Below the pieces are notes generated by a model. It did no database searches. It saw only the letters and a list, made by a program, of their open reading frames with translations, and was not told where the DNA came from. Below are positions 41,805 to 43,485 of a stretch of DNA of 64,000 nucleotides, piece after piece. The first letter of the stretch is position 1. Each line of letters begins with the position of its first letter. This DNA comes from Campylobacter sp. CN_NE2 (lineage in GTDB: Bacteria > Campylobacterota > Campylobacteria > Campylobacterales > Campylobacteraceae). Both the position numbers and the translations under genes were made by a program. Location of the stretch: contig NZ_CP115608.1 of NCBI RefSeq assembly GCF_027797465.1, positions 62,001 to 126,000 on the forward strand, given 5' to 3'.

Positions 41805-42615
41805 AGTTTGTGTGTTACAGCTTCCGACACTTTCTATGAACGAAAGCAGGATTGATTATTATATGAAAATCGCCAAAGATAATGACGCTAAAATCGTGCT
41901 TCTTGGCGAATATGTGCTAAATAGCTTTTTTACCGAGCTTAAAAAAATGCCAAAACCGATGATAAAAGAGCAGAGCGATCACAAAAAAACTCTTTTTGCA
42001 AATTTGGCAAAAAAATATGATTTAACGATAATTGCGCCGATTGTTTTGCTTAAAAACGGCGGTTATGCAAAAAGTGTTGCTAAATTTAGCCCAAGCTCGA
42101 CTAAATATTTCGATCAAAATATTTTGATAAACTACGCTCACTGGGACGAAGATGGTTTTTTTATAAATTCAAAAAATGCAAAAAAAGAGCAAAATGACGA
42201 AATTTCATTTCCGATTTTTAGTGACAACGGTGTGAAATATGGAATTTTATTTGGCTTTGAAGCGCATTTTGACGCCGCTTGGGTGTATTTTATGAAAAAG
42301 AAGGTTGATTGTGTTTTATTGCCGTGCGCTTCGACATTTGACTCAAATGAGCGTTGGGAAGAGCTTTTAAAAATTCGCTCGTGGCTGAATTCTGTTTTTA
42401 TAATCAGAGCTAATCGTATCGGAAAAGCGAAATTTGGCAAAGAAAATTGCGATTTTTACGGGCGAAGCGCGGTTTTTTCTCCGCTTGGAGAAATCATAAA
42501 TTCGCTAAAAGATGAAGAGGGCGTGTTGCTAAGCGAAATTTCCAAAAAAGAGCTAAGTTTTGCAAAAAATTTATGGAAATTTAGAGATATTTCAGCCAAA
42601 AAAGGGCTGATTTAG
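41797..42615 (+). CDS. Nitrilase-superfamily protein with degenerate active site
   Basis: A 272-residue protein with the carbon-nitrogen hydrolase fold (VCVLQLPTL start, LLGEYV, KYGILFGFEAHFD, DCVLLPCAS, IIRANRIG, SAVFSPLGEI). The first catalytic residue Glu38 is kept. Where the family has the nucleophilic Cys in I-C-Y-D-x-R-F-P, this protein reads FGFEAHFD, so the Cys is Gly153. The Lys position reads QNIL. It is therefore probably not a hydrolase, but a binding or regulatory pseudoenzyme. A nitrilase-family gene at the same place in C. jejuni (Cj1056c, from memory) would allow comparison. The alignment was done by eye. Confidence 0.8.
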   Translation: MSKVCVLQLPTLSMNESRIDYYMKIAKDNDAKIVLLGEYVLNSFFTELKKMPKPMIKEQSDHKKTLFANLAKKYDLTIIAPIVLLKNGGYAKSVAKFSPSSTKYFDQNILINYAHWDEDGFFINSKNAKKEQNDEISFPIFSDNGVKYGILFGFEAHFDAAWVYFMKKKVDCVLLPCASTFDSNERWEELLKIRSWLNSVFIIRANRIGKAKFGKENCDFYGRSAVFSPLGEIINSLKDEEGVLLSEISKKELSFAKNLWKFRDISAKKGLI

Positions 42616-42640
42616 ATAGCGATAATATAGTGTAAAATCC

Positions 42641-42672
42641 GCAAATTTAAAAGCGATAGCTTTTAAATTTGC
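42641..42672 (+). terminator. Hairpin after the nitrilase-like gene
   Basis: GCAAATTTAAAAGC / GCTTTTAAATTTGC, a perfect 14 bp stem with loop GATA, 25 bases after the operon's last gene. There is no clear T-run, so it may act as an mRNA 3'-end stabiliser or as a Rho-assisted stop. Confidence 0.55.
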
Positions 42673-42687
42673 CACTCCTAGCGTGCA

Positions 42688-42750
42688 GGGGTTGGGGGAT
42701 TGTAAGGGGGAAGGGGGCGCTTCGCAAGTCAGCCAACTTCCCCCTTACAA
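42688..42750. repeat. G-rich structured element with hairpin and G-quadruplex motif
   Basis: Four G-tracts GGGG-TT-GGGGG-ATTGTAA-GGGGG-AA-GGGGG lie within 30 bases (42688-42717). The last two tracts are also part of a perfect 14 bp inverted repeat, TTGTAAGGGGGAAG (42700-42713) and CTTCCCCCTTACAA (42737-42750). Such G-tracts stand out sharply in this AT-rich genome. No gene is visible in 42616-42825. Confidence 0.75.
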
Positions 42751-42825
42751 GGCAATTTTAAAGTAGGTTAAATTTTTAAATTTGCAAAATTAATGCAATA
42801 ATATTGTGGTAATTTAAGGTAAAAA

Positions 42826-43485
42826 ATGGAATATTTTCACAGACAAATACAGCTTTGGGGCGAAGACAGGCAAAATTCGCTAAAAGATAAAAAAATTCTC
42901 ATCATCGGCTCAGGCGGTCTTGGCTCATCTTTTGCTTATGCGCTTGGGTCTAGCGGTGTGGGCGAGATTTGTGTTGTGGATTTTGACACGGTTTCGCTTC
43001 ATAATATCCATAGACAAATTCTTTTTTCGCTCGAAGATGAGGGTAAATTTAAGGCTGATATTTTTAAAACTCGTGTTGAAAGTAGATTTGACGGGGTTTG
43101 CGTTCGTCCTTTTAAGATGAAAGCTGACGAATTTTTTAAAACCTGCGCCGAAAAATTTGATCTTATTTTAGATGCGACCGATAATCTTGCCACGCGTATG
43201 CAAATCGACGAATTTGCGAAAAAAACGGAGACACCGTGGATTTTTACTTCGGTTGATAGCTGGCAGGTGCAAGTCTGCTTTATCGAAAAAAGCGATTTTA
43301 AATTTTTCCCTACTACGAAAGTGGCACCAGCAGGGCTTGCTGCGCCTATCGTTATGTTTGCGGCGAGTTTTACGGCAAATTTAGCACTTCGTTATTTGGC
43401 AAATTTGGAAGTCAAAAAAGATACGCTTTATTACTTAAATTTTTTCTCGGGCGAATTTGAAACCAAAAAAATCGCTCTTGTTTAA
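42826..43485 (+). CDS. ThiF/MoeB/HesA-family adenylyltransferase-like protein
   Basis: A 219-residue E1-like protein. It has RQIQLWGEDRQ, the ATP-binding loop IIGSGGLGSSFAYALGSSG, VVDFDTVSLHNIHRQILF and DATDNLATRMQ. The family adenylates the C-terminus of sulfur-carrier proteins such as ThiS or MoaD. Unlike typical MoeB/ThiF, no pair of zinc-binding C-x2-C motifs is visible, so it is a divergent member. No thiS or thiamine gene is next to it; moaD lies 6.2 kb away. The ATG follows AAGGTAAAAA. Confidence 0.85.
   Translation: MEYFHRQIQLWGEDRQNSLKDKKILIIGSGGLGSSFAYALGSSGVGEICVVDFDTVSLHNIHRQILFSLEDEGKFKADIFKTRVESRFDGVCVRPFKMKADEFFKTCAEKFDLILDATDNLATRMQIDEFAKKTETPWIFTSVDSWQVQVCFIEKSDFKFFPTTKVAPAGLAAPIVMFAASFTANLALRYLANLEVKKDTLYYLNFFSGEFETKKIALV

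Follow-up and report, generated by a model that had tools for sequence, protein, structure and literature searches.

Purine-motif intrastrand DNA triplexes combine a third-strand segment (T) with a purine arm (R) and a pyrimidine arm (Y), and are assigned to class I when the order is T-R-Y and to class II when it is Y-R-T (PMC4666352). The base code given in that paper is the one seen in the present family. The TM_ECO/BoxC repeat is of class II with short loops, and CD and NMR showed that it folds in vitro; PIT elements halt DNA polymerase in vitro, and purine-motif triplexes are not formed by RNA (PMC4666352). In tests cited in that paper, PIT elements of E. coli had no effect in vivo as promoter or terminator or in conjugation, and the PIT search cited there by Hoyne et al. 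allowed loops of 0-10 nt. Campylobacter is unmentioned in PMC4666352, whose own search (ITxF) allowed loops of 1-6 nt, so that the family described here, with R-Y loops of ~9-90 nt, falls outside it; both loop ranges are exceeded, and these are limits of a search rather than physical criteria. Triplexes in natural DNA may have been selected as structures, or they may arise by accident from G-rich sequence. Covariation by comparison is the standard proof for RNA helices. Here comparative covariation is reported for a third DNA strand, which makes the question of selection or accident directly testable.

The locus lies in a 64-kb window, the whole stretch of DNA that was analysed. In the intergenic space 42616-42825, just before the ThiF start at 42826, four G-runs (42688-42691, 42694-42698, 42706-42710 and 42713-42717) span 30 bases and overlap a hairpin with arms TTGTAAGGGGGAAG (42700-42713) and CTTCCCCCTTACAA (42737-42750), in which all 14 bp are paired around a 23-nt loop. 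The earlier note had described the four runs and the perfect hairpin, and these were re-found exactly as it placed them; it was also right that two overlapping structures have G-runs in common. The double G-run GGGGTTGGGGG occurs once in the window (0 expected, 100 shuffles), and the region folds much more strongly than its own shuffles (z = -6.2, RNA parameters). Of all sites in the window, a scan for exact 8-triplet intrastrand triplexes of class I or II retained this one alone; it retained nothing in 60 simulated windows. The two structures had been supposed to exclude each other; this is not required, as the third strand (runs 1-2) can sit on the purine arm (runs 3-4). Two Y positions are broken or decayed in the window copy, where 42735-42736 reads AA while most copies have C, so that the top of the stem is decayed there.

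We propose, with a probability of about 0.7, that the element is a non-autonomous mobile intergenic repeat with a conserved core that specifies a putative intrastrand DNA triplex (purine motif, class I). The dispersed family, its presence or absence at orthologous sites and the covariation are observed, whereas the fold and its role are inferred. The parts stand in T-R-Y order, with T antiparallel to R and with the G.GC and A/T.AT triplets that define class I of the PIT purine motif. When the G-rich strand becomes single during replication, repair or transfer, R would pair with Y in a hairpin, and T, lying upstream, would fold back antiparallel on R, forming G.GC, T/A.AT and T.CG triplets. Such a single-strand structure could stall polymerases or be recognised by a protein, and may thereby aid the persistence or spread of the element. 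The parts of the window copy are listed in the table.

Table. Parts of the repeat copy in the window
Feature	Coordinates	Strand	Basis or remark
Inserted repeat, approximate extent	42630..42815	+	Intergenic spacing compared with same-species genome G041; ends approximate
Hairpin 1, GCAAATTTAAAAGC-GATA-GCTTTTAAATTTGC	42641..42672	+	Stem varies among copies, pairing kept; read from sequences
Conserved linker GCCACTCCTAGCGTGCA	42671..42687	+	Alignment
T (G-runs 1-2), GGGGTTGGGGG, proposed as third strand in reverse-Hoogsteen pairing	42688..42698	+	Mirror tests
T-R linker ATTGTAA, also base of hairpin stem	42699..42705	+	
R, purine arm GGGGGAAGGGGG (G-runs 3-4)	42706..42717	+	
R-Y loop	42718..42736	+	~70 nt of another repeat added in three other copies of genome G000
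Y, pyrimidine arm CTTCCCCCTTACAA	42737..42750	+	
3' tail, AT-rich, common to copies (..TTAAATTT..)	42751..42785	+	Alignment

The element belongs to a dispersed family. A search for further copies, suggested by the earlier note, was productive: an 81-base query gave 16 matches in the complete 1.54-Mb genome (G000), which correspond to ~14 copies after joining of pieces, and a further subtype added two more, for a total of ~14-16. Subtypes were found with a pattern that leaves the R interruption and the Y arm free, such pattern searches taking the place of a covariance model. Many copies were present in G041, a genome of the same species, and in G005, G012 and G011, and others in G006, G010 and G016. 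Beyond the genus, dozens of genomes carry copies; many subtypes are spread over the family Campylobacteraceae, and an order-wide search recovered copies from another family (f13) as well. Pattern matches in Pseudarthrobacter, Aliifodinibius, Bacillota and one viral contig were taken as chance. The repeat is ~150-210 bp long and intergenic; the 33 copies whose surroundings were inspected lie between large reading frames. Its architecture in the focal genus is hairpin 1, a linker GCCAC..AGCGT.., T, R, a loop, Y and an AT-rich tail; the T-R linker measures ~3-9 nt across the family and the R-Y loop ~9-90 nt (19-23 nt in the window copy). By local GC skew there was no replication-strand bias (12 of 20), and a search of the open-access literature with the repeat's own sequence found no paper describing it.

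Covariation between T, R and Y carries our reading. For each copy, R was defined by its hairpin pairing with Y, T was taken upstream, and the register was picked for maximal matches. T mirrors R in antiparallel orientation: G of R faces G, A faces T or A, and C faces T. Interruptions and lengths co-vary between the two segments. Summed over 73 pairs, the mirror score reached 711/827 with true partners, compared to 559 +/- 13 with permuted ones (0 of 2000 permutations as high). With one representative for each of 12 R classes the score was 132 against 86 +/- 7.6 (p = 5e-6), and with the published triplex code only, without skipping, 105 against 75 +/- 6.6 (p = 1e-5). These p-values are optimistic, the R classes being few in number and related by descent. 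Skipping of a T in the purine arm and the T-opposite-C match were both adopted post hoc. Removal of four unrelated matches from the 73 pairs left 69 distinct copies, of which 35 had a perfect mirror fit and 60 a fit of at least 0.8. In the register that maximised matches, the residues facing A were T (109), A (38), G (2) and C (1), and under the same register C was faced by T in 10 cases out of 11.

The interruptions illustrate how closely the two segments follow each other. The T/R pairs TT/AA, TAT/AAA, TAA/AAA, ATT/AAA, T/A, T/C and TTA/CAA were all encountered, and further mirrored pairs were GGGGGATGGGTGGGG in T with GGGGCGGGAAGGGG in R, and GGGGGATTTGGGG with GGGGAATAAGGGGG. A T residue within R has no partner in the T segment (ATAA stands with three bases, ATA with two). 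In one copy (L178) a G-to-A change is paired, R GGGAGATAAGGGG standing with T GGGGATTGAGGG. We also considered a direct-repeat reading of T and R, which scored below the mirror reading; it is excluded by asymmetric classes such as R GGGGGCGGAAGGGG with T GGGGTAGGTGGGGG, where the mirror gives 14/14 and the direct reading 8. With the rule fixed beforehand, 7 of 7 copies from f13 outside genus g54 (genera g24, g69, g78 and g83) fitted perfectly, a support falling short of full independence because the classes present there, A and ATAA, may be related by descent to those from which the rule was learnt. Three tested copies of genus g54, also of f13, failed the rule. The g54 copies L250, L252-L257, L259-L261 and L263 have an R spacer TTAA, TTGTA or CAAAA and a Y spacer TAT or TTG, and their mirror is broken; in g54 copies that break the rule, T fits the complement of Y better than R does.

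Copies are present or absent at orthologous sites. The CN-hydrolase and ThiF genes are 210 nt apart in G000 and 33 nt apart in G041, where the element site is empty; in G005, G004, G007 and G008 the two genes adjoin, and the site is empty as well. Two further differences separate G000 from G041, the L018 copy being missing from G041 and the L073 copy from G000. The element is no constant leader ahead of the ThiF gene but an insertion, missing from close relatives, and at this locus its arrival between two adjacent genes is most likely all that happened. As expected of MITE-like elements, the copies are multiple and orthologous sites can be empty. As to terminal inverted repeats, TGTCATTGC-type left and right ends were seen only in G005 and G012 copies, and no clear target duplication was seen at the element ends. 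Between L032 (G005) and L043 (G012), which lie beside the same gene and are flanked by inverted TGTCATTGC repeats, the orientation of the element appears to be opposite, possibly the result of an inversion. A reverse transcriptase (RVT_1) was considered as mobiliser, and was uncorrelated with element number. The earlier suspicion of G-tract slippage was borne out by one orthologous pair, in which the tract has 18 G in L026 (G000, 1515-1540) and 5 G in L077 of the same-species genome, with flanks ~97% identical; this slippage affects the third strand itself or the bases adjoining it. To Campylobacter relatives the family gives a named source for intergenic insertions and for variation in G-tract length.

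According to the earlier note, the selected structure would be a G-quadruplex of the four G-runs, competing with the hairpin as a switch. A canonical motif (G3+N1-7 four times) is indeed present in the window copy, with loops of 2-7-2, as in 51 of the 69 distinct copies, and G-strands of triplexes can adopt quadruplexes (PMC4666352). The 18 others have no canonical motif, their middle loop being longer or one run short, yet most of them keep the mirror, and a quadruplex needs neither a Y arm nor interruptions that mirror each other, such as CGGAA with TAGGT or GGGAG with GAGGG. The copies co-vary as a triplex demands, with 60 of 69 showing the mirror against 18 of 69 devoid of the quadruplex motif. 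We consequently think the quadruplex an unlikely main feature, and the comparison suggests that the triplex is the structure kept by evolution. The wider claim would be that compensatory evolution (triplet covariation, with T opposite C and paired G-to-A changes) demonstrates the third strand of an intrastrand triplex in a family of natural DNA, the triplex being the selected, possibly enzyme-recognised form of an order-wide mobile repeat; on the sequences compared, we consider the odds of it to be even.

Slightly less probable still than the quadruplex is an element acting at the RNA level on neighbouring genes, as terminator, attenuator or small RNA, with G-runs as by-products. The strong fold mentioned above, the T.G wobble of some stems and the fact that 23 of 33 copies share their strand with the gene upstream all agree with it. 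However, flanking genes are found in every orientation, sites are empty in relatives, and a scan for intrinsic terminators (a G+C hairpin, then a T-run) found no terminator-like site in 42500-42900; the upstream hairpin previously called a terminator lacks that signature in the scan and is hairpin 1 of the repeat itself. Rfam, searched with a lax threshold, gave no family at its curated score, only RsaJ with 15.7 bits for a gathering score of 100. Moreover, purine-motif triplexes are absent in RNA (PMC4666352), so an RNA element would leave the covariation of T and R unexplained. A repeat derived from REP/RAYT or IS200/IS605 and moved by a hairpin-reading Y1 transposase would fit an element that is hairpin-rich, extragenic, dispersed and adjoined in some copies by REP-like repeats; nevertheless, Y1_Tnp (PF01797) was absent over the cut-off from G000 and from the 13 element-rich relatives searched, and we hold this origin to be the least probable of the three.

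The triplex-encoding mobile repeat that we favour may be related in kind to the E. coli PIT/BoxC elements. Like PIT/BoxC/TM_ECO, it is a dispersed bacterial G/C-rich repeat with a potential purine-motif intrastrand triplex, its presence varies among strains, and a quadruplex is possible on paper as well. TM_ECO, however, is a class II (Y-R-T) element with loops of 3-6 nt, whereas the putative triplex here is of class I with the longer linker and loop given above; the BoxC/TM_ECO consensus 5'-CCCTCNCCC N3-6 GGGNGAGGG N3 GGGNGAGGG-3' differs from the present repeat in both sequence and strand order, and sequence, clade and the covariation of T with R set the present family apart. With purine-motif H-DNA mirror repeats it would have in common mirror symmetry and reverse-Hoogsteen pairing, but the duplex would be an intrastrand hairpin, and the T segment carries pyrimidine substitutions where it faces A and C. 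REP/REPIN and MITE-type elements are likewise short, hairpin-rich, extragenic, non-coding and polymorphic in presence, in contrast with which the genomes searched here had no Y1 transposase, and terminal inverted repeats or target duplications were not clear.

Other repeats were met around the copies. The R-Y loops of L025, L028, L029 and L078 hold another hairpin-rich repeat (AAACAAGCG..GATGACACGC..GCAGAG), which also occurs outside the element, near L138/L081. Intergenic regions of G005 and G012 (flanks of L030-L038 and L042-L046) are dense in REP-like repeats of the form GTCATTGCGAG..GCAATCTACGA. GTGGGCAAGGATGCCCACC adjoins the G000 copies L023 and L029, and no RAYT gene was found. The circular junction of the contig lies within one of the copies (G000:C1:1-55 and 1536767-1536814; L027 and the end of L023). 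Finally, at L039 and at L102/L140 (G006), divergent copies lie near each other in opposite orientation, like some reported E. coli TM_ECO pairs.
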